From: Ectocarpus siliculosus
Lineage: Eukaryota > Sar > Phaeophyceae > Ectocarpales > Ectocarpaceae
Direction of reading: 5' to 3'
Assembly: GCA_000310025.1 (NCBI GenBank)
Contig: FN649731.1
Span: forward strand, 3,123,672 to 3,187,671
Length of the DNA: 64,000 nucleotides
Position 1 is the first letter of the stretch. Each line of letters opens with the position of its first letter. The position numbers and the translations under genes are program-made. Shown here piece after piece: positions 1,985 to 40,169 of the stretch. The notes beneath the pieces were generated by a model. That model saw nothing but the letters and a program-made list of their open reading frames with translations, had not been told where the DNA came from and did no database searches.

Positions 1985-4123
1985 TCACAGCAGACTACGC
2001 CGTTCACGAGTCACACTTCGTAAGGCGACCGGCCACACGACCGGCCACATGACTTCGGCGATGGGCTGGTTGAAGTGATGACGAAACCGTAGCTGCTGCA
2101 GGGAGGTCGGCCACACGACGTCGGCGATGGGCTGGTTGAACTCATCACCAAACGATAGCTGCTGCAGGGAGGTCGGCCACACGACTTCGGCGATAGGCTG
2201 GTTGAAGTGATCTCCAAACGACACGTGTTGCAGGGAAGCCGGCCACACGGTTCCGACGATGGGTTGGTCGAAGTTGTCCCCAAAGGCTAGTTGCTGCAGG
2301 GAGGTCGGCCACACGGTACCGACGATGGGCTGGTTGAAGAAGTCTCCAAACGATAGCTGCTCCAGAGAGGGCGGCCACACGGCTTTGGTGATGGGCTGGT
2401 TGAATTGATCTTTGGTGGTACTGAAGTATTCAGAACGAAAGGATAGCTTCCGCAGTGAGGCCGGCCAGACGACTTTGGCGATGGGCTGGTTGAAGGATTC
2501 TCCAAGCGACAGCTGCTGCAGGGAGGCCGGCCACACGACTCCGGCGATGGGCTGGTTGAAGGAATACCCAAACCACACCTGTTGCAGGGAGATCGGCCAC
2601 ACAACTTCGGTGATGGGTTGGTTGAATGAAAACCCAAAGGATAGCTGCTGCAGGGAGGCCGGCCACACGACTTTCGCGATGGGCTGGTTGAATTCAAACC
2701 CAATCCACACCTGCTTCAAGGACACCGGCCACGCAACTTCGCCGATGGGGTGGTTGAAGTGAACCCCACACAGCTGCTGCAGGGAGGCCGGCCACCCGAC
2801 TTCGGCCATGGGCTGGTTGAAGGAAGCACCAAGCGATAGCTGCTGCAGGGAGGCCGGCCACACGGTTCCGACGATGGGCTGGTTGAAGCGAGGTCCAAAT
2901 GACAGCTGCTGCAGGGAGGCCGGCCACACGACTTCCAAGATGGGCTGGTTGAAACGACCAAACGATCGATACCGCATGCTGGGCACCCGTCGGACTTGAT
3001 CGATGGAGTCGTTGAAATTATCCCCAAAGGAAAGCTGCTGCAGGGAGGCCGGCCACACTACTTTGGCGATTGGCTGGTTGAATTTTTTCCCGAACGACAA
3101 CTGCTGCAGGGAGGCCGGCCACACGACTTCATCAATGGGCTGGTTGAAATAAAACCCAAACGATAGCTTTTGCAGGAAGACCGGCCACACGGCGTTGGCA
3201 ATGGGCTGGTTGAATGCATCCCGCATCGAACATCTGCCTGACTGCACGGCCCCCACACTGGGCTGGTTGAATTGACAACCAAACAATGGCTGCTTCAGCG
3301 AACCCGGCCACACGAGTTCAGCGATGGGCTGGTTAAAGCAAGCTCCAAAGGATAGCTGCTGCAAGGAGGCCGCCCACACGACTCCGACGATCGGTTGGTT
3401 GAACGCATCCCCAAATGATACCTGCTGCAAGGAGGTCGGCCATACGACTCCGACGATCCGCTGGTTGAATGTATGCCCAAACGATAGTTGTTGCAGGGAG
3501 GCCGGCCACACGATATCGGCTATGGGCTGGTTGAAAGAATTCCCGAAAGACACGTTCTGCAGGGAAGCCGGCCACACAACTTCGGCAATGGGTTGGTTGA
3601 AGTCATACTTGAACGACAACTGCTGCAGTGCGGCCGGCCATGTCACCGTCTTTACCGGCGTATCCGAATATATTACCAGCCGTCGGAGCCTTGGAGGCCA
3701 AACCAGAGGTCGCAGGCTTTCTGCCGATGAATTCCCTTGCAGTCGCCGACTTTCTGACCCTGACCGTGGCTCAATGGCAGAGTTTTGCAGCAGAGGCTCC
3801 ATCGGCAGTGTCCACCTCAGGCCAAAAGCCTGCACAGACGGCACGCGACTCGAGATCCAACTCTCTCGACCTCGCTTGTTGGTCGTTGTGTACGGTTCGC
3901 GAGGAGACCACAAGCTAGGAGGTGTGCCTGAGGTGACGCACACGTCCAAAGTCGGGAAACTTCGGCACGCCCCACAAAATGCCAGCGACACCAGTTGTAG
4001 CTCCAGGGTAGACGCAATCCAACGGTTCTTCTGTCGTCCATCGCAAGCCTGGTTCAATGCGACAGTGAAGGCATCCAGGCACTTGCTCCTCCCTGAGATA
4101 CCGAATGGCAGATACAGGAACAC
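1985..4123 (-). CDS. FNIP-repeat protein, unit A copy (about 24 repeats)
   Basis: The largest ORF of the unit, about 712 codons open on the minus strand. An N-terminal region of about 130 residues without a recognised domain is followed by about 24 tandem 22-residue repeats of the form WPASLQQLSFGxxFNQPIAEVV. The FNQPI core and the spacing match the FNIP repeat known from Dictyostelium and giant-virus proteins, which are thought to fold like leucine-rich-repeat solenoids. Repeats 8 and 12 are degenerate and repeat 20 has an insertion between the Phe and the FNQP core. The extreme 5' end is uncertain: the upstream in-frame triplet is GTG, and the first clear ATG is in MEPLLQN, about 110 residues in, so an upstream exon is likely. 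The C-terminus ends in ERRSLL, as in unit B. No F-box, transmembrane helix or clear signal peptide is visible. The function is unknown. The two residues after each FG are hypervariable between units. Confidence 0.75.
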   Translation of the reverse strand: MFLYLPFGISGRSKCLDAFTVALNQACDGRQKNRWIASTLELQLVSLAFCGACRSFPTLDVCVTSGTPPSLWSPREPYTTTNKRGRESWISSRVPSVQAFGLRWTLPMEPLLQNSAIEPRSGSESRRLQGNSSAESLRPLVWPPRLRRLVIYSDTPVKTVTWPAALQQLSFKYDFNQPIAEVVWPASLQNVSFGNSFNQPIADIVWPASLQQLSFGHTFNQRIVGVVWPTSLQQVSFGDAFNQPIVGVVWAASLQQLSFGACFNQPIAELVWPGSLKQPLFGCQFNQPSVGAVQSGRCSMRDAFNQPIANAVWPVFLQKLSFGFYFNQPIDEVVWPASLQQLSFGKKFNQPIAKVVWPASLQQLSFGDNFNDSIDQVRRVPSMRYRSFGRFNQPILEVVWPASLQQLSFGPRFNQPIVGTVWPASLQQLSLGASFNQPMAEVGWPASLQQLCGVHFNHPIGEVAWPVSLKQVWIGFEFNQPIAKVVWPASLQQLSFGFSFNQPITEVVWPISLQQVWFGYSFNQPIAGVVWPASLQQLSLGESFNQPIAKVVWPASLRKLSFRSEYFSTTKDQFNQPITKAVWPPSLEQLSFGDFFNQPIVGTVWPTSLQQLAFGDNFDQPIVGTVWPASLQHVSFGDHFNQPIAEVVWPTSLQQLSFGDEFNQPIADVVWPTSLQQLRFRHHFNQPIAEVMWPVVWPVALRSVTRERRSLL

Positions 4124-7460: not shown

Positions 7461-9024
7461 GTGCCGGTTCATCAAAAGTACCCAGCTAGGTTCATCTTCA
7501 ACGTGGACGAGACAGGCATCCAGTGGAAGCTTATGCCCAGGCGCACGTATCTTTCCTCCTCGGAGGACCGCAAGAAGGCGCGGGGCTCCAAGAGCATGTA
7601 CTTCAAGGATCGGATGTCTGCCATCATGTGCAGCAACGCCGACGGCACTGCAAAGGTGGATATGGCCATCATCGGGAGGTCGAAGGTGCCTCGCTGCTTC
7701 ACGGACGCGCCTTCACCTCTGAAGTACTTCTCGCAGGCCAACGCGTGGTCTGACTCCGCGACGTTCCTCAAGTGGTGGCTTGAAGTCTTCCTCCCGTTCA
7801 TTCGGCGCTTCACTCACGAAAAGGTGCTGCTCCTGATGGACGGCTGCTCCTCTCACGGCGATCTCGTTGATGATCGTGGGCAAGTTACCATCAAGTTCTA
7901 TCCTCCGAACTGCACCAGCCTGCACCAGCCCATGGACATGGGGATCATCGCGAAGACGAAGGTCCTCTACAGGAAGGAGCTGCTCGACGTGAAGGCATCC
8001 ACAATGTTGGTCGCTGAGACCCTTCGCGCCCAGGCCAAAGCCAGTAAGATGAAGGCCGGGACGATGGGGCTGGCGCAGGGGCACCAACCTCACCTACGGG
8101 ACGCCGCTGAACTTCTTCAGAAAGCATGGGGCAGCGTCACTCCCCAGGACATCGCCAGGTCAGGTTTGAACATGTTCTGTTGCTATGTAGATGCTTCAAC
8201 TCGGGCGGTGGTGCTAGCACAATAGCTTTGGTGGCACGTTTCGTGGCAGAGGTGGTACGGATTTTTTTTGAGAAAGTTTCCTGCAGGGGCATCCCTCGTT
8301 TGCAATAAAAATTTCCTCTTTTTTTGCATGCGGATGAGTCAACTTCTGCCGCTGGGTCCGTCTAATATCTGCGTTGCACTCAAAAACGGATGCGGTTCGT
8401 ATTCTCGGCAACCCCGCGACCAGGTGCTTTGTCAAAGCGGACACGCTTCCGCAGGAGATGGCGGCTGAGCTCACCAACCTCCACGGGAAAACCCAGGCCC
8501 GCATCCACGAGCCTGCGTTGAGGTCCCTCACGAAGAGTGTCCACTCGTTGAGCACGAGCGTGCACGACGCGCAGCAGCAGGGGTCTCGCATCGAAGACGA
8601 GGACCTGAGTGAAATGTTCGCAGAACTCAACGTCTCACCCGGAGAGCCTGCCCCGGAGGAGGCGGTGGACTTAGTTCAGGCGTGGGCTACCATCGAGGAT
8701 GACGATGACGTGGTGGAGGCTTTTCGACAGGATGCAGCGGACGAAATGACGGCACAGCTAGCGGGAACGCGCCTATCTACCAGCCGCGAGGAGGAATCCG
8801 AAGATGAGGCGGACAGTGATCATGAGGACACGGGGGGCGGCCGCCGCGCCCCACCGGCTTACGGTGAACTGTCTTCTCACTTCGGTGTCCTGGAGATGGC
8901 CGCGCGGGAGAGTGGAAACGGGGACGCTGCGTTCCACCTATCGAAAGCGAAGATGGCGATGATCGCGGCGCATGCCGCTAAGGGCGTGCGCCAGACAGAC
9001 ATGAGAGAGTTTGTTGATGAGTGA
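7461..9024 (+). pseudogene. pogo-type transposase, N-terminally truncated
   Basis: The first open segment (7461 to about 8157) encodes the DDE_1 catalytic domain: NVDETGIQW carries the first Asp, LLLMDGCSSH the second, and PPNCTSLHQPMDMG the third acidic position, followed by the typical KAWGSVTPQDIAR. A GT donor after IAR (about 8158) and reopening at about 8374 (KTDAVRILGN) suggest an intron of about 200 bp. The second part, to 9024, is an acidic C-terminal tail (EDEDLSEMF, REEESEDEADSD), common in this family. The open frame starts only about 160 bp inside the left terminal repeat with no room for the HTH/CENP-B DNA-binding domains, so the protein lacks about half of its usual length. It would not be expected to bind its own ends. 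Confidence 0.75.
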
Positions 9025-14315: not shown

Positions 14316-16388
14316 TCACAGCAGACTACGCCGTTCACGATCCACACTTCGCAAGGCGACCGGCCACACGACCGGCCACATGACTTCGGAGATGGGCTGG
14401 TTGAACTTATGACCAAACGATAGCTTCTGCAGGGAGATCGGCCACACGACGTCGGCGATGGGCTGGTTGAAGCGATATCCAAACGACACCTGTTGCAGGG
14501 AAGCCGGCCACACGGTTCCGACGATGGGTTGGTCGAATAGGGTCCCAAACGACACCTGTTGCAGGGAAGCCGGCCACACGGTTCCGACGATGGGTTGGTC
14601 GAATTCTCTCCCAAACGACACGTGTTGCAGGGAAGCCGGCCACACGGTTCCGACGATGGGTTGGTCGAAGTTGTCCCCAAAGGCTAGTTGCTGCAGGGAG
14701 GTCGGCCACACGGTACCGACGATGGGATGGTTAAAGGAGTCTCCAAACGATAGCTGCTCCAGAGAGGGCGGCCACACGACTTTGGTAATGGACTGGTTGA
14801 ATTGAGCTCTGTCCCCACATAAGCGTTCAGAACGAAACGATAGCTTCCGCAGTGAGGCCGGCCAGACGACTTTGGCGATGGGCTGGTTGAAGTGCAAACC
14901 AAACGACAGCTGCTGCAGGGAGGCCGGCCACACGACTCCGGCGATGGGCTGGTTGAAGATACAACCAAACCACACCTGTTGCAGGGAGATCGGCCACACG
15001 ACTTCGGTGATGGGTTGGTTGAATTTAAACCCAAACGATAGCTGCTGCAGGGAGGCCGGCCACACGACTTCCGCGATGGGCTGGTTGAAGGAACGTCCAA
15101 ACCACACCTGCTTCAAGGACACCGGCCACGCAACTTCGCCGATGGGGTGGTTGAAGTCAACCCCACACAGCTGCTGCAGGGAGGCCGGCCACCCGACTTC
15201 GGCCATGGGCTGGTTGAAGGAAGCACCAAGCGATAGCTGCTGCAGGGAGGCCGGCCACACGGTTCCGACGATGGACTGGTTGAAGGAAGCACCAAACGAC
15301 AGCTGCTGCAGGGAGGCCGGCCACACGACTTCCAAGATGGGCTGGTCGAAACGACCCCACGACCGACGCCCCATGCTGGGCACCAGCCGGACTTGAGCCA
15401 TGGAGTGGTTGAAATTATCCCCAAAGGAAAGCTGCTGCAGGGAGGCCGGCCACACTACTTTGGCGATTGGCTGGTTGAATCTGTTCCCGAACGACAACTG
15501 CTGCAGGGAGGCCGGCCACACGACTTCATCAATGGGCTTGTTGAATTCAAACCCAAACGATAGCTTTTGCAAGAAGACCGGCCAAACGGCGTTGGCAATG
15601 GGCTGGTTGAATGTATCCCGCATCGAACAACTGCCTGACTGCACGGCCCCCACGCTGGGCTGGTTGAATTGACAACCAAACAATAGCTGCTTCAGTAAGA
15701 CTGGCCACACGAGTTCAGCGATCGGCTGGTTAAAGCGAATTCCAAAGGATAGCTGCTGCAGGGAGGCCGGCCACACGACTCCGACGATTGGCTGGTTGAA
15801 TGCATCCCCAAACGATAGCTGTTGCAGGGAGGCCGGCCACACGATGTCGGCTATGGGCTGGTTGAAGCGATATCCAAACGACACCTGTTGCAGGGAAGCC
15901 GGCCACACGACTTCGGCAATGGGTTGGTTGAAGTTATACCTGAACGACAGCTGCTGCAGCGAGGCCGGCCATGTCACCGTCTTTACCGGCGTATCCGAAG
16001 TTATTACCAGCCGTCGGAGCCTTGGAGGCCAAGCCAGAGGTCGCAGGCTTTCTGCCGATGAATTCCCTTGCGGTCGCCGACTTTCTGACCCTGAGTGTGG
16101 CTCAATGGCAGAGTTTTGCAGCAGAGGCTCCATCGGCAGTGCCCACGTCAAGCCAAAAGCCTGCACAGACGGCACGCGACTCGAGATCCAACTCTCTCGA
16201 CCTCGCTTGTTGGTCGTTGTGTACGGTTCGCGAGGAGACCACAAGCTAGGAGGTGTGCCTGAGGTGACGCACACGTCCAAAGTCGGGAAACTTCGGCACG
16301 CCCCACAAAATGCCAGCGACACCAGTTGTAGCTCCAGGGTAGACGCAATCCAACGGTTCTTCTGTCGTCCATCGCAAGCCTGGTTCAA
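14316..16388 (-). CDS. FNIP-repeat protein, unit B copy (about 24 repeats)
   Basis: An open frame of about 690 codons with the same architecture as the unit A copy: an N-terminal region with MEPLLQNSAIEP, then about 24 repeats of WPASLQQLSFGxxFNQPI, ending VALRSVDRERRSLL. The extreme 5' end starts from a non-ATG triplet, so the real start is either the internal ATG or lies in an upstream exon. Compared with A, the array lacks one N-terminal repeat and gains a block near the C-terminus in which FDQPIVGTV occurs in three successive repeats. The two-residue hypervariable site differs from A in most repeats while the framework is almost unchanged. Confidence 0.75.
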   Translation of the reverse strand: MNQACDGRQKNRWIASTLELQLVSLAFCGACRSFPTLDVCVTSGTPPSLWSPREPYTTTNKRGRESWISSRVPSVQAFGLTWALPMEPLLQNSAIEPHSGSESRRPQGNSSAESLRPLAWPPRLRRLVITSDTPVKTVTWPASLQQLSFRYNFNQPIAEVVWPASLQQVSFGYRFNQPIADIVWPASLQQLSFGDAFNQPIVGVVWPASLQQLSFGIRFNQPIAELVWPVLLKQLLFGCQFNQPSVGAVQSGSCSMRDTFNQPIANAVWPVFLQKLSFGFEFNKPIDEVVWPASLQQLSFGNRFNQPIAKVVWPASLQQLSFGDNFNHSMAQVRLVPSMGRRSWGRFDQPILEVVWPASLQQLSFGASFNQSIVGTVWPASLQQLSLGASFNQPMAEVGWPASLQQLCGVDFNHPIGEVAWPVSLKQVWFGRSFNQPIAEVVWPASLQQLSFGFKFNQPITEVVWPISLQQVWFGCIFNQPIAGVVWPASLQQLSFGLHFNQPIAKVVWPASLRKLSFRSERLCGDRAQFNQSITKVVWPPSLEQLSFGDSFNHPIVGTVWPTSLQQLAFGDNFDQPIVGTVWPASLQHVSFGREFDQPIVGTVWPASLQQVSFGTLFDQPIVGTVWPASLQQVSFGYRFNQPIADVVWPISLQKLSFGHKFNQPISEVMWPVVWPVALRSVDRERRSLL

Positions 16389-18181: not shown

Positions 18182-19659
18182 TGTGGAGGACGACACAGAG
18201 TGATACTCAATTGCCCTGCCGTACTAGCAAACGAAAACGAACTAGGGCCCGGAAATTAAACGATTGATTTATTCTATCGTTCCTAACAGTTGCCATGTCT
18301 ATCTTTTCCGAGACTTGAGACAAATTTATACTACTATTATTCTGTGTTATATATATATATTTAGCACAGGACCAGTAGCCACGGTGGTTGGTTGTATCCA
18401 GTGGAAACAACCTATTTTTGAAGTGTTTGGGGAAACACTCGCGAGGAGAATTGAATGATACCACCTCTGTCCCAAGATCTTATTTTTTTATGAATAGATC
18501 TTATTTTTTGATGAATAGATAAACTTGCCAGAGGGTCACCTCATTACAAGTTCATCCTCCATCAAGATCTTATTTTTTTGATGAATAGATAAACTTGCCA
18601 GAGGGTCACCTCATTACAAGTTCATCCCCCATCAATACCTTATTTGTGATGAATAGATAAACTTGCCAGAGGGTCACCTCATTACAAGTTCATCCCACCA
18701 AGATCTTATTTGTGATGAATAGATAAACTTGCCAGAGGGTCACCTCATTACAAGTTCATCCCATCAAGATCTTGGTTTTGATGAATAGATAAACTTGCAG
18801 AGGGTCACCTCATTACAAGTTCATCCTCCATCAATATCTTATGTTTTGGTGAACAGATAAACTTGCCAGAGGGTCACCTCATTACAAGTTCATCCCCCAT
18901 CAAGATCTTATTTTTCGATGATGAATAGAGAAAACTTGCTAGAGGGTCACCTCATTACAAGTTTATTCCTCATCACGATATTATTTTATGATGAAAAGAC
19001 AGACTCGCCGGAGGGTCACCTCATTACGAGTCTATCTCTCATCAACCCCACAGCAATATCATGCGAAATATTTTAGTACACTAGCTGTCATCTTGATAGC
19101 CCAGTACCCACAATTTTTTTTTCTAGACTATTCTAGTATGGACCACATCTATCACTACTCTGTCTGAAGACTCCGTGTTTTTTAACACGCGTTGTATGAT
19201 AATCAGGCCGAGTTGATGATGTTGTACCAGGTAGGTTAACTCCAATACATGTGTCTCCATGAGCCACTCATGTCTATGGCCGCCAAAAGCACATCTTTAG
19301 CACAGATGGACTTGTGGCGCATAGAGGGGGGGGTGATGTGGAGGACACCTGTCAGGAGTTTAACCAACCATGTGTGCACATACAAAGTGTAGGAAGATAT
19401 GGCTCCCTCGGGGTATCTTGTCACAAGGAGAGTGACAGGAAATGCACCGTCGGAGATGGATATCTTCCGAAGTCCCTGGCCACTTGCCGAAAGTCGAAGC
19501 GGAGAGTCTTCGACTCTCCTCTCCCTCTGCCGCTATGGCCACTCTCTCTTTCTACCCTCTTCTCCTCGTTTACACATCACGAGAGGAAATAGCCTTCCCC
19601 TGGCAGTGGGATAATACTGCCACGGCACCGGCATCTGTCTCCGACAATAGCCAGTGTCC
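18182..19659. mobile_element. 1.48-kb insertion specific to unit B
   Basis: It is flanked by a 7-bp direct repeat TCATGAA (18,175-18,181 and 19,660-19,666). Unit A has one copy of this site uninterrupted (attatcatgaaggtgg). The ends (TGTGGAGGAC and CCAGTGTCC) show no clear inverted repeat, and there is no coding potential I recognise. The insertion contains a TA microsatellite at about 18,347, an array of hairpin-forming 68-bp repeats (18,471-19,045) and about 600 bp of anonymous sequence. The motif gatgtggagga recurs internally at about 19,335. It is likely a non-autonomous element of unknown class. Confidence 0.6.
18471..19045. repeat. array of about 8 hairpin-forming repeats, about 68 bp each
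   Basis: The unit reads caagatcttatttt, gatgaatagataaacttg, ccagagggtcacctc, attacaagttcatc, then a short spacer. Each unit is an imperfect palindrome: GATGAA and ACTTG on the left pair with CAAGT and TTCATC on the right, and the centre contains GAGG-GTCA-CCTC. The last units change both sides of the stem together (AGACTCG pairing with CGAGTCT at 19,001 and 19,027). The spacers vary in length more than the stems. Confidence 0.85.
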
Positions 19660-29178: not shown

Positions 29179-30306
29179 CTACCATGCCTGGGTAGTTGTT
29201 TCTTTCCCGACAGCAGTGTTCGCCTGCTCGGTTATTTCTTCCTTGTCTTCTTCTATGTGCGTCGCGCGCAGTGGGCAGTCGTACCACCCATGTCCTCTTG
29301 AGTTTCTGCAGTACCGACAACGTCCTTTACGGTTCTTACCATTGTCCTGCCCTGACGCTTCGTTTCCTTGTTGTGCACTACCTCCCGCACTTGCTGCACC
29401 TTTTCCGCCGTCCGTCAGCCCGCGTGTCCCATGGTTTCGGTTCGACGCAAAGTTGTTTCCGCTCGACGGGCCGTTCGACGAGTTGTTGCCACCGCCTCGT
29501 CCGCGACGACTTCTCCCTCCACGACCACCTTGTTTGCGGAATCCACGCGCTCCTTCGTGCATTACTGTGTTCAGCGCACGGCTGTCGCTGCCAGAATCAC
29601 CATTATAGGTGGTTACTTTCCCCCGGATTTGACCAGCATGGTACTTCTCCGCCATTTCTGCGAGATCTTCGAATTTCGGGTCGCTGCCAGCTCGTTGCGA
29701 ATCAATCACAAGAGCAGCCTTGAAAGCGCCGTATAGTTCGTCTGGGAGTGCATTGATAAACGCGTGGGTCTTCCTTGCCTCGACTACTTTGTCGCCGAGA
29801 GCGTCTAACTCAATGCATATGCGGCGCAATTCCTGAACAGTCCGAGCTGGATCATAGGCATCGACTTCGGTTACGGCAAGTTCTGCAAATTGTGCGTGCA
29901 GTTCTTGCATGCGAACTGTCCCCCTCGACCGAAACTTTGCTTCGAGCGCTACAATCGCGCTGCGTCCGTCACCAAACCCGTCCAACCCTATCGGTGCATA
30001 GGTTTGGACTACGACCGCTGCAGGACTGTCGTATCCTTCCGGACAGTCCGTCGTCGCAAGAACCAGGCGGGTATGAAGTTTGCCATTCTTCTCTTTGAAC
30101 GCTTTCACGAGTACCTGATGAGCCGATCTTTCGGTCGGGGATGGATTTCCAGTCAGTGCCGCAGGCTCTCTCTCCGCCCCAGTCATGATCTCTCCCAGGC
30201 CTGCTTCGAACATGAGGGCTCGCTGGAGAGAAATCCAGCTATTGTAGTGCGCCGGCTTTCCGCTGAACGGTGCATATCCCTTCAGGATAGGATTGGCGGA
30301 GGACAT
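29179..30306 (-). CDS. Gag protein of the LTR element (Copia-like)
   Basis: About 375 codons from the ATG of MSSANPILKGYAPFSG, which lies about 40 bp after the 5' LTR. The start PILKGYAPFSGKPAHYNSW is the usual opening of Copia-type Gag proteins (GYxPFxGxxYxxW). Near the C-terminus is a zinc-knuckle-like motif CRYCRNSRGHGWYDC, with CX2CX5HX4C spacing, one residue longer than the classic CX2CX4HX4C. An RGG-rich stretch (KQGGRGGRSRRGRGGG) precedes it and would fit RNA binding. The protein would form the particle and package RNA. The ORF is intact, supporting recent activity. No protease or pol follows. Confidence 0.8.
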   Translation of the reverse strand: MSSANPILKGYAPFSGKPAHYNSWISLQRALMFEAGLGEIMTGAEREPAALTGNPSPTERSAHQVLVKAFKEKNGKLHTRLVLATTDCPEGYDSPAAVVVQTYAPIGLDGFGDGRSAIVALEAKFRSRGTVRMQELHAQFAELAVTEVDAYDPARTVQELRRICIELDALGDKVVEARKTHAFINALPDELYGAFKAALVIDSQRAGSDPKFEDLAEMAEKYHAGQIRGKVTTYNGDSGSDSRALNTVMHEGARGFRKQGGRGGRSRRGRGGGNNSSNGPSSGNNFASNRNHGTRGLTDGGKGAASAGGSAQQGNEASGQDNGKNRKGRCRYCRNSRGHGWYDCPLRATHIEEDKEEITEQANTAVGKETTTQAW

Positions 30307-30347
30307 TGTGACTCGATGTGGTTTACCTACCACGTTGGCTCATAACC

Positions 30348-31386: not shown

Positions 31387-32595
31387 CTATCCGTTCCCCC
31401 AGACGGTCCCCTCCCCCGGCTGTCTCGATACGATCCTACTGCCGTCTGTAAGTTTCCGTGACACTCGCCGCGAATCCTCTACATTGTTTCGCGCGTACGG
31501 CTTGTATGCATCCGACCTCCACTTCCCTTCTCTCTGAATCACTCGTTCTGCGATGTCTCCGCCCGATGCAAGAGCCGTCGCGCCTCCAATTCGCAACGAG
31601 TGCAACGCGTACTCCTGGGGGTTACGCCCCGACCTCGCTACCACTTCTCTGAGTGCACGGAGGGCAGCAGTATACCTCACTACTCTCACTGCTCTTCCAC
31701 TACGGTACGAAGCCAACGGTGCGGAGTCAGGGAACGTCGCATGACACGATAACAGCTCCACCACAAGAGCCACCGCGCCACCGCGTGCTCTCACACCTGA
31801 CTGCGGTCCGGTGACTTCGTCTCGCGTACGAACCCGTATGTTTCCTTTCTGCTCTTGATCGGCCTTGTGCCCTCTAAACCTCATTTCGACACGGTCTGCT
31901 CTACGATAGTGACTAAAGACTAATTGCGTCTCGCCAGCAAACAATGCTACGTCCGCCCTCGTAAGACAGTGTGCCTCATGCACCCTGCCCGCATCATTCG
32001 CGAACACCTCATCAGACCGTGTGATAAAGAGATAGGACAAGCACAGACACAGCCACATCACTCTGCCCCCTTCCCCCCAGTTCTGGCTTGCGCTTTCCCC
32101 GTCCAGCAGCATACGCCAAGACACAGGCAGGCGCACACGGCGTACCGTCCCCACAGCCACGTGGTTCCTCGCAATCCCCCTTAGCGCACATTTCAACATC
32201 GGAGACGACAAGTCTAGCTCGACAGAAGCTTCCAGCCTATGAAAATGTTGTACAGCCGTGAGTTTTCCGGATATTGTACTCGCTAGATTACCCTCAGACT
32301 CGAAACACCAGGCTACGAAGTCTATCAACTCCCACACATGAAGGTCCCCGGCACGTTGCCCTAGGAACTTGGGCTTCTCCGTCAGCCTGCGAAACGTGCA
32401 CCAAGAGTTGAAGCCTGACGTGTAAGTCCTTCTAGACGAAGACGCAACTGAGTGCTCGACGAGCTGCATGCCAAGACGTCGGTAACAAAAGTCCCGTCCT
32501 GCCTGTCCCAGGTCCTGAACCTGCTGATAGCCCTGGAGCCAACCTCGTGTAGACCGGCGTGCTGCCGTTCGATTTAGCCGCAGGTGCGCTGCCAT
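31387..32595 (-). CDS. tyrosine recombinase of the YR element
   Basis: 402 codons from a true ATG (MAAHLRLNRTAARRS). An N-terminal core-binding region (about residues 45-150, with SSSRRTYTSGFNSW) precedes the catalytic domain. The catalytic residues are present: Arg193 in LFITRSDEVF, His332 and Arg335 in LHSLRIGGAT, Trp359 in GKWRSDAYKPY at the place often held by His, and nucleophile Tyr366. The HSLRIGGAT and WxSDAYxxY signatures are those of eukaryotic DIRS/Ngaro/Crypton recombinases. The enzyme would integrate a circular DNA intermediate. The frame is uninterrupted and of family-typical length. It lies downstream of the gag-like segments and just upstream of repeat B1. Confidence 0.88.
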   Translation of the reverse strand: MAAHLRLNRTAARRSTRGWLQGYQQVQDLGQAGRDFCYRRLGMQLVEHSVASSSRRTYTSGFNSWCTFRRLTEKPKFLGQRAGDLHVWELIDFVAWCFESEGNLASTISGKLTAVQHFHRLEASVELDLSSPMLKCALRGIARNHVAVGTVRRVRLPVSWRMLLDGESASQNWGEGGRVMWLCLCLSYLFITRSDEVFANDAGRVHEAHCLTRADVALFAGETQLVFSHYRRADRVEMRFRGHKADQEQKGNIRVRTRDEVTGPQSGVRARGGAVALVVELLSCHATFPDSAPLASYRSGRAVRVVRYTAALRALREVVARSGRNPQEYALHSLRIGGATALASGGDIAERVIQREGKWRSDAYKPYARNNVEDSRRVSRKLTDGSRIVSRQPGEGTVWGNG

Positions 32596-37770: not shown

Positions 37771-40169
37771 TCATTTTCTACCTTGCCGAAAACAGGACCC
37801 GCATGACTGGAGGAAAGCATCGACAGCTGTCACACACAGCAGACTACGCCGTTCACGATCCACACTTCGCAAGGCGACCGGCCACACGACCGGCCACATG
37901 ACTTCGGAGATGGGCTGGTTGAAGGAGTCTCCAAACGATAGCTTCTGCAGGGAGGTCGGCCACACGACGTCGGCGATGGGCTGGTTGAAGCGATATCCAA
38001 ACGACACCTGTTGCAGGGAACCCGGCCACACGGTTCCGACGATGGGTTGGTCGAATAGGGTCCCAAACGACACCTGTTGCAGGGAAGCCGGCCACACGGT
38101 TCCGACGATGGGTTGGTCGAAGTTGTTCCCAAACGACACCTGTTGCAGGGAGGTCGGCCACACGACTTCGGCAACAGGCTGGTTGAAGCGATATCCGAAT
38201 GACACGTGTTGCAGGGAAGCCGGCCACACGGTTCCGACGATGGGTTGGTCGAAGTTGTCCCCAAAGGCTAGTTGCTGCAGGGAGGTCGGCCACACGGTAC
38301 CGACGATGGGATGGTTGAAGGAGTCTCCAAACGATAGCTGCTCCAGAGAGGGCGGCCACACGACTTTGGTAATGGACTGGTTGAATTGAGCTCCGTGCCC
38401 ACTGAAGGTTTCAGAACGAAACGATAGCTTCCGCAGTGAGACCGGCCAGACGACTTTGGCGATGGGCTGGTTGAATTGGAACCAAACGACAGCTGCTGCA
38501 GGGAGGCCGGCCACACGACTCCGGCGATGGGCTGGTTGAAGCGCACTCCAAACCACACCTGTTTCAGGGAGATCGGCCACACGACTTCGGTGATGGGTTG
38601 GTTGAATGTAAACCCAAAGGATACCTGCTGCAGGGAGGCCGGCCACACGACTTTCGCGATGGGCTGGTTGAAGGAACGTCCAAACCACACCTGCTTCAAG
38701 GACACCGGCCACGCAACTTCGCCGATGGGGTGGTTGAAGTCAACCCCACACAGCTGCTGCAGGGAGGCCGGCCACCCGACTTCGGCCATGGGCTGGTTGA
38801 AGGAAAAACCAAACGATAGCTGCTGCAGGGAGGCCGGCCACACGGTTCCGACGATGGGCTGGTTGAAGGAAGCACCAAACGACAGCTGCTGCAGGGAGGC
38901 CGGCCACACGACTTCCGAGATGGGCTGGTTGAAATTACCCCACGATCGACGCCGCATGTTGGGCACCCGCCGGACTTGGGCGATGGAGTGGTTGAAATTA
39001 TCCCCAAAGGAAAGCTGCTGCAGGGAGGCCGGCCACACTACTTTGGCGATTGGCTGGTTGAATTTGTTCCCGAATGACAACTGCTGCAGGGAGGCCGGCC
39101 ACACGACTTCATCAATGGGCTGGTTGAATTCAAACCCAAACGATAGCATTTGCAGGAAGACCGGCCACACGACTTCATCAATGGGCTGGTTGAATCTATC
39201 CCGCATCGAACCTATGCCTGACTGCACGGCCCCCACGCTGGGCTGGTTGAATTGACAACCAAACAATAGCTGCTTTAGCGAGACCGGCCACACGAGTTTA
39301 GCGATGGGCTGGTTGAAGCGAATTCCAAAGGATAGCTGCTGCAGGGAGGCCGGCCACACGACTTCGACAATCGACTGGTTGAATGCATCCCCAAACGATA
39401 GTTGTTGCAGGGAGGCCGGCCACACGATGTCGGCTATGGGCTGGTTGAAATATTGCCCGAAACACACGTTCTGCAGGGAAGCCGGCCACACGACTCCGAC
39501 GATCGGCTGCTTGAATGCATCCCCAAACGATAGCTGTTGCAGGGAGGCCGGCCACACGATGTCGGCTATGGGCTGGTTGAAAGAATGCCCGAAAGACACG
39601 TTCTGCAGGTAGGCCGGCCACACGATGTCGGCTATGGGCTGGTTGAAGCGATATCCAAACGACACCTGTTGCAGGGAAGCCGGCCACACGACTTCGGCAA
39701 TGGGTTGGTTGAAATAATCCCCGAACGACAGCTGCTGCAGCGAGGCCGGCCATGTCACCGTCTTTACCGGCGTATCCGAAGTTATTACCAGCCGTCGGAG
39801 CCTTGGAGGCCAAGCCAGAGGTTGCAGGCTTTCTGCCGATGAATTCCCTTGCAGTCGCCGACTTTCTGACCCTGACTGTGGCTCAATGGCAGAGTTCTGC
39901 AGCAGAGGCTCCATCGGCAGTGCCCACGTCAAGCCAAAAGCCTGCACAGACGGCACGCGACTCGAGATCCAACTCTCTCGACCTCGCTTGTTGGTCGTTG
40001 TGTATGGTTCGCGAGGAGACCACAAGCTAGGAGGTGTGCCTGAGGTGACGTACACGTCCAAAGTCGGGACACTTCGGCACGCCCCACAAAATGCCAGCGA
40101 CACCAGTTGTAGCTCCAGGGTAGACGCAATCCAACGGTTCTGCTGTCGTCCATCGCAAGCCTGGTTCAA
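37771..40169 (-). pseudogene. FNIP-repeat gene, unit C copy, frameshifted (about 29 repeats)
   Basis: The 5' part (40,169 to about 38,478) encodes the N-terminal region and about 20 repeats. The 3' part (about 38,478-37,771) continues in another frame with about 8 repeats. The switch is a 1-nt loss at about 38,474-38,480 (tgaattggaaccaaac where B has tgaagtgcaaaccaaac), inside the hypervariable tract of that repeat. A 4-nt insertion at the 3' end (cacacacagcag) removes the stop used in A and B and adds about 20 residues. The array is longer than in A or B, with an extra two-repeat block (QNVSFGHS and QNVCFGQY units, about 39,430-39,620). It may be a real pseudogene, or the 1-nt loss may be an assembly error. 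Confidence 0.7.

Follow-up and report, generated by a model that had tools for sequence, protein, structure and literature searches.

Tightly localised excess of change at two exposed residues of FNIP/FGxxFN repeats in some gene clusters of Ectocarpus siliculosus

In some gene clusters of Ectocarpus siliculosus, exposed residues of a known repeat family change in excess, and this excess is tightly localised. The cluster analysed here lies in a stretch of 64,000 nucleotides (the window; contig FN649731.1, positions 3,123,672 to 3,187,671) and holds three paralogous genes, A, B and C, composed largely of FNIP/FGxxFN repeats. Change is concentrated in a seven-base tract consisting of the silent third base of the Gly codon (Gly3) and the codons of the two residues between FG and FN (xx). 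We think it probable, though far from certain, that diversifying selection acts here on exposed contact residues, with new variants supplied by point substitution and by very short copying within arrays. The framework of the repeat would be held by purifying selection for packing, and the exposed residues of a young gene cluster would be under diversifying selection, most likely since the proteins bind variable partners; both the binding role (recognition or adhesion) and the selecting agent are presumed. New tracts would arise through ordinary substitutions and through very short copying from one repeat to another within an array. Such copying, presumably gene conversion or template switching, would span the tract plus anything from a few bases to some tens and carry the silent Gly base along with the two codons; as the flanks resemble each other, it would leave little trace beyond the tract.

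All three genes lie on the minus strand. Gene A (1985..4123) is a 712-aa open frame with an N-terminal non-repeat part followed by 24 FNIP/FGxxFN repeats according to a motif search, the matches covering about 2041-3645. Gene B (14316..16388) is a 690-aa open frame. The arrays of A and B are unbroken frames; an earlier reading made from the sequence only had described the whole array as one exon. Gene C (37890..40169) has its open frame interrupted within the array, with ORFs at 38268-40169 and 37771-38712 in different frames. One of its tracts (38476..38481) has six nucleotides instead of seven, which shifts the frame, so that C may be a pseudogene or reflect an assembly error. The upstream non-repeat parts are very similar (13/614 nucleotide differences in A-B, 19/613 in A-C and 12/613 in B-C). 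The PF05725 profile scores 299.9, 321.2 and 261.9 bits for A, B and C (first frame only for C), far above the curated cut-off of 21, and a Pfam scan of the three frames returned only FNIP and a sub-threshold DUF7182. The arrays display a 22-residue repeat with the consensus LxxLxFGxxFNQ, in which the F, G and F columns are fixed by the search pattern and the others are observed; repeat and consensus are those of known FNIP proteins (PF05725), including Crov588 and Crov539 and proteins of Dictyostelium, mavirus and Megavirus. Profile searches matched the solved structures of Crov588 (6nyr, E 6.6e-145) and Crov539 (7zal, 2.2e-56), and the arrays are accordingly predicted by sequence similarity to form leucine-rich-repeat-like solenoids with a double Phe spine and the variable residues at the concave edge. 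An AlphaFold2 model of the array, built on an alignment of 3 rows only, reached pLDDT 62 and pTM 0.57, too low to build on. The family is large, and the assembly holds at least 137 FNIP repeat matches (150 of 1,539 candidates scored). It also holds at least 150 matches to EsV-1-7 motifs (150 of 880 candidates scored), which are typical of brown algae, so that both motif families point to a brown alga.

Seventeen repeats were paired by position across A, B and C, leaving the rearranged array ends out of positional counts. The central repeats are collinear and carry position-specific framework marks, which makes their pairing safe, while repeat number differs among the three arrays. The sequence-only reading had claimed variation between FG and FN in about 14 of 17 pairable repeats; exactly 14 of the 17 differ in at least one array and three are identical in all. 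Its example repeat also proved exact in letters and positions, the tract being GTATTCC in A (2561..2567, encoding YS), TTGTATC in B (14958..14964, CI) and AGTGCGC in C (38541..38547, VR), all on the minus strand (ggaatac, gatacaa and gcgcact on the plus strand), and to either side of this tract A and B agree over more than 20 bp. For per-nucleotide counts the insert repeat at 2404 was omitted throughout and the frameshifted tract at 2494 was omitted for C, while two irregular repeats were retained. Differences then amount to 33/112 nucleotides in the tract versus 35/944 in the rest of the repeat for A-B, 32/105 versus 35/885 for A-C, and 13/105 versus 35/885 for B-C. Aligned repeat by repeat, the 7-nt tract therefore diverges 7.9, 7.7 and 3.1 times faster than the other 59 nucleotides, which disposes of the possibility that the tract evolves no faster than its surroundings. 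Other comparisons used automatic pairing by local alignment (15 tracts for A-B, 14 for A-C and 16 for B-C), and their repeat sets consequently differ slightly from the positional set. The insert of one irregular repeat, longer and variable (A 2405..2437 on the minus strand, B about 14802-14834, C 38386-38418; coordinates set by eye from the alignment), diverges strongly among the three genes.

Tract changes in the trio are of two kinds, affecting either one or two bases or much of the tract. Differences per tract between A and B run 3, 0, 2, 2, 0, 4, 0, 1, 6, 2, 4, 6, 1 and 0 in the 14 regular repeats, a variance reached in none of 20,000 permutations (14 regular repeats; 13 with C). Large changes are found in the tracts YS/CI/VR, FE/RS, PR/AS and ES/LH, and a milder one, AC/IR, leaves Gly3 unchanged. 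Overdispersion extends to A-C, B-C, L018/L019, L016/L017, L027/L028 and L039/L099 (p 0.022 or less for all seven pairs including A-B), and in L018/L019, a pair unrelated to the trio, it was reached in none of 5,000 permutations; it is absent from L006/L007 (0.46), L051/L052 (0.08) and L057/L063.

Shuffling of whole repeats, unequal crossing over or mispairing might account for the tract differences, and the varying repeat number and rearranged ends of A, B and C are what such processes would leave. Tract and framework change also go together in L039/L099, L051/L052 and L027/L028 (Spearman 0.89, 0.82 and 0.78), which fits whole-repeat replacement or mispairing in these three pairs. The central trio repeats, however, match in their flanks right up to the tract, and tract change there is independent of framework change within the same repeat (0.21, -0.11 and -0.05; -0.11 in L018/L019). 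Given this collinearity, shuffling is largely excluded for the central repeats, and we regard it as a very unlikely explanation overall.

We compared non-synonymous divergence at xx with synonymous divergence of the framework in ten gene pairs, using Nei-Gojobori counts on few repeats. The ratio is 4.04 for A-B (bootstrap 2.0-8.3), 2.97 for A-C (1.05-7.6) and 2.43 for B-C (0.39-10.1, not significant on its own), and the A-B framework itself evolves at a non-synonymous rate of 0.024 against a synonymous rate of 0.095. Elsewhere it is 0 in L057/L063, 1.03 in L018/L019, 1.92 in L016/L017, 1.10 in L027/L028, 3.14 in L006/L007, 3.64 in L051/L052 and 1.28 in L039/L099 (bootstrap 0.9-1.5). The bootstrap interval lies above 1 in A-B, A-C, L006/L007 and L051/L052, the last two being of uncertain register; these two pairs, together with L003/L004 and L039/L099, are given low weight for that reason. 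Relaxed constraint, under which xx would drift freely within a constrained framework, is compatible with L018/L019 and L027/L028, where xx changes as fast as silent sites do, and nearly so with L039/L099. It is hard to reconcile with ratios above 1 in A-B and A-C (and, with pairing less sure, in L006/L007 and L051/L052), with a biased amino-acid make-up of xx, or with the complete conservation of xx in L057/L063, and we consider it highly improbable.

The make-up of xx was examined in 613 regular repeats, which come from the window together with the first 60 loci. The two positions have amino-acid entropies of 3.94 and 3.97 bits, against 2.82 bits in the column that follows; the search pattern fixes F, G and F. 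Measured against base composition, both positions are enriched in Trp, Phe and Arg, the first also in Asp and the second in Glu, whereas Gly, Pro, Ile and Val are under-represented. Position-wise base composition (taken from stop-free repeats) predicts about 108 tracts with a stop codon, but only 2/898 have one, both of them in L099, and the tract is seven bases long in 730/770 cases. The near absence of stops, the dominance of length seven and the biased composition indicate that selection shapes the outcome. The earlier suggestion that the variable residues sit on the contact face gains support from solved relatives, in which the corresponding residues line the concave face at its variable edge (PMC9525666, available text).

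This plausible binding edge would also suit positive selection acting on ordinary point mutations alone, the blocks being successive substitutions. Changes in B-C are of one or two bases except for a single block (6/7 bases), and in A-B bases 1 and 2 of the second codon change most (9/16 and 7/16), while in both codons the third base changes least (2/16 each). Against this reading stand the overdispersion of tract differences, the sharing of tracts within arrays, which it leaves unaccounted for, and the behaviour of the silent Gly base. Gly3 differs in 4/14 cases in A-B, 3/13 in A-C and 1/13 in B-C, compared with 6/130, 5/121 and 6/123 fourfold sites of the framework (one-sided Fisher p 0.0086, 0.030 and 0.51; A-B and A-C are not independent). 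In the local-alignment set for A-B, Gly3 differs in 0/9 tracts with fewer than three xx changes and in 5/6 with three or more (p 0.002), so that some events resemble block replacement; coupling elsewhere gives p 0.033 in A-C, 0.0625 in B-C, which has one block only, and 0.095 in L018/L019. Independent point mutations would hardly produce such coupling, and we judge point mutation alone an unlikely source of the pattern.

The inclusion of the silent Gly base in the varying tract, part of the original claim, stands for block events. It does not extend to two further pairs, L015/L025 and L025/L035, in which Gly3 differs in 0/10 and 0/8 repeats while xx differs at 28/60 and 32/48 sites. In comparisons with L089, Gly3 does differ (1/5 and 2/5 cases). 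An invariant Gly3 beside a variable xx argues that the seven-base edge is not general. Gly3 has the highest entropy among silent third positions of the 613 regular repeats (1.77 bits, others up to 1.70), close enough to the rest to be unexceptional genome-wide.

Generality was assessed in 100 further loci, which are part of the family. Close gene pairs behave differently from one another. In L057/L063, 9/124 silent sites of the framework (7%) have changed, yet xx is constant in all nine tracts and Gly3 has changed once; its 0/9 changed tracts contrast with 11/15 in A-B (Fisher p 0.0006), but not significantly with 4/16 in the somewhat younger B-C (p 0.26). Tract acceleration is therefore a property of some clusters and not of the repeat as such, bearing in mind the latter p value. 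The same counts argue against universal instability of the tract, and these differences between pairs also count against a general tract mutator. In this young pair (L063 at G000 C3:1930932, L057 at C3:2021486), where xx is unchanged, the downstream part carries many differences and indels. Searches for additional paralogues recovered only the known L019 for L018 (88%) and at best the known L015 for L025 (85%); L012 gave no other full-length match, and a scan of viral contigs with N-terminal patterns gave no relative. When all repeat pairs are ordered by framework distance, the tract saturates fast, but unrelated near-consensus repeats enter this comparison and we do not use it as an argument for that reason.

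The sharing of tracts inside arrays supports copying of tract-sized pieces there. Identical 7-mers in repeats of the same array that differ at 10 or more of 59 framework sites form 37 pairs in 19 loci, whereas 15.8 are expected (sd 3.6, maximum 27 in 500 shuffles). Gly3 agrees in 74 of the 84 same-array pairs that have identical xx but a framework difference of at least 6, against 46.6 expected (sd 4.1; maximum 62 in 5,000 permutations), and 41/48 tract classes are uniform at Gly3. The framework fourfold bases of the same 84 pairs agree in 460/609 cases, below Gly3 (p 0.0085). Shared flanks of the 37 pairs have medians of 8 and 7 bases, and those of 3,883 other same-array pairs 5 and 5. Duplication of whole repeats followed by framework drift could be the source of part of this sharing. 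Identical 7-mers between unrelated loci (85 pairs versus 74.3 expected, sd 8.9) gave no reason to keep a genome-wide library of shared tracts, and local templates were likewise discarded, as a search of 400 nt around 18 block tracts found a direct copy of one and an inverted copy of one (chance 0.63 and 0.62).

A search for donors had been proposed, and donors proved mostly absent. In B and C, the tract at 15284/38867 is identical to that of the adjoining repeat, and the A tract at 2692 equals that of another repeat in B and C. The five positions of block change in the trio hold 11 distinct tracts, the frameshifted one omitted, and for 8 of these the only copies among 934 repeats of 103 sequences, if any, are in the same repeat of a sister array. 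Two pattern searches of the 189.5-Mb assembly, with 109 and 101 places in all, covered seven of these eight tracts; among the matches listed, six occur at their own place only and TTGTATC once more, at C17:4176137. Because of these donor-less tracts, a dedicated tract mutator has to be kept among the candidates: a sequence-directed process at TTTGG...TTCAAC flanks would replace or scramble the seven bases, with or without a template, and selection would then remove stop codons. In the trio and in L018/L019, block changes stop at the tract and leave its flanks untouched; this, the Gly3 coupling in A-B and the C tract one base short all speak for it. Yet, besides the conserved tracts of L057/L063 (significant against A-B only), it has to face an xx rate no higher than the silent rate in L018/L019 and L027/L028, an invariant Gly3 in L015/L025 and L025/L035, and frame-breaking lengths in 22/770 tracts that compare with 17/907 FNQ-to-WP spacings. 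We rate this process as improbable. The claim of a locally targeted diversification survives in that change is concentrated in the tract, independently of framework change, and that within-array copying has statistical support; as a general targeted process it finds no support in the conserved and silent-rate pairs. A narrower version, restricted to some clusters, in which seven bases are swapped as a block between near-invariant TTYGG and TTCAAC flanks, diversifying single-frame arrays one residue pair at a time without exon shuffling or recognisable genomic donors, is slightly less doubtful but still rather unlikely.

Diversity-generating retroelements and lamprey VLRs are systems in which variability is localised at contact residues of binding proteins, a feature that the window arrays would share with them. 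Hallmarks of these systems are a template repeat, adenine-directed changes and a dedicated reverse transcriptase for the retroelements, and assembly cassettes for the VLRs. FNIP repeats have been reported in Saccharina (121 proteins) and Ectocarpus, as far as the accessible portions of PMC4421812 and PMC2373305 go. The variability of the two residues is already known and little is known of FNIP protein function, according to the available text of PMC9525666; that text treats variability between repeats and proteins and contains no occurrence of 'gene conversion', whereas our comparison concerns close paralogues, silent sites and block changes. The virophage genomes EV1 and EV2 lie two SNPs apart except in their FNIP gene (PMC10945749, in part), so fast change of an FNIP gene is already on record; those genes are viral and their change is given at the level of the gene, while that of the window is at the level of the tract. 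Brown algal LRR-ROCO candidate immune receptors, as described in the consulted part of PMC11378527, likewise form a large repeat family with diversifying selection at exposed sites. Each of their repeats is a 72-bp exon of its own and whole exons are shuffled, whereas here part of the repeat changes within one open frame; they also carry ROC-COR, a domain missing from the three scanned frames of A, B and C. Within titles and abstract openings, a partial coverage of the literature, we found no description of tract-level change in FNIP arrays or of block changes between near-identical genes. What the present analysis adds is that xx hypervariability is not universal among gene pairs and that whole tracts, Gly3 included, are shared within arrays above chance. 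Giant viruses, virophages, slime moulds and brown algae all have FNIP proteins in large numbers. That the exposed pair of residues in each repeat outpaces silent sites in a cluster, partly through tract-sized copying, points to a recognition role and makes that role testable.

Other features of the window include a DDE_1 transposase-like frame at 7461-8225 on the plus strand (PF03184, E 2.4e-29). Two minus-strand frames, at 31387-32595 and 29179-30333, resemble a tyrosine recombinase and a retroelement gag on visual inspection, with no Pfam match at E 0.001. A minisatellite at 18496-19031 (7.8 copies) has a period of 66, the same as the FNIP repeat, and by eye a different sequence.
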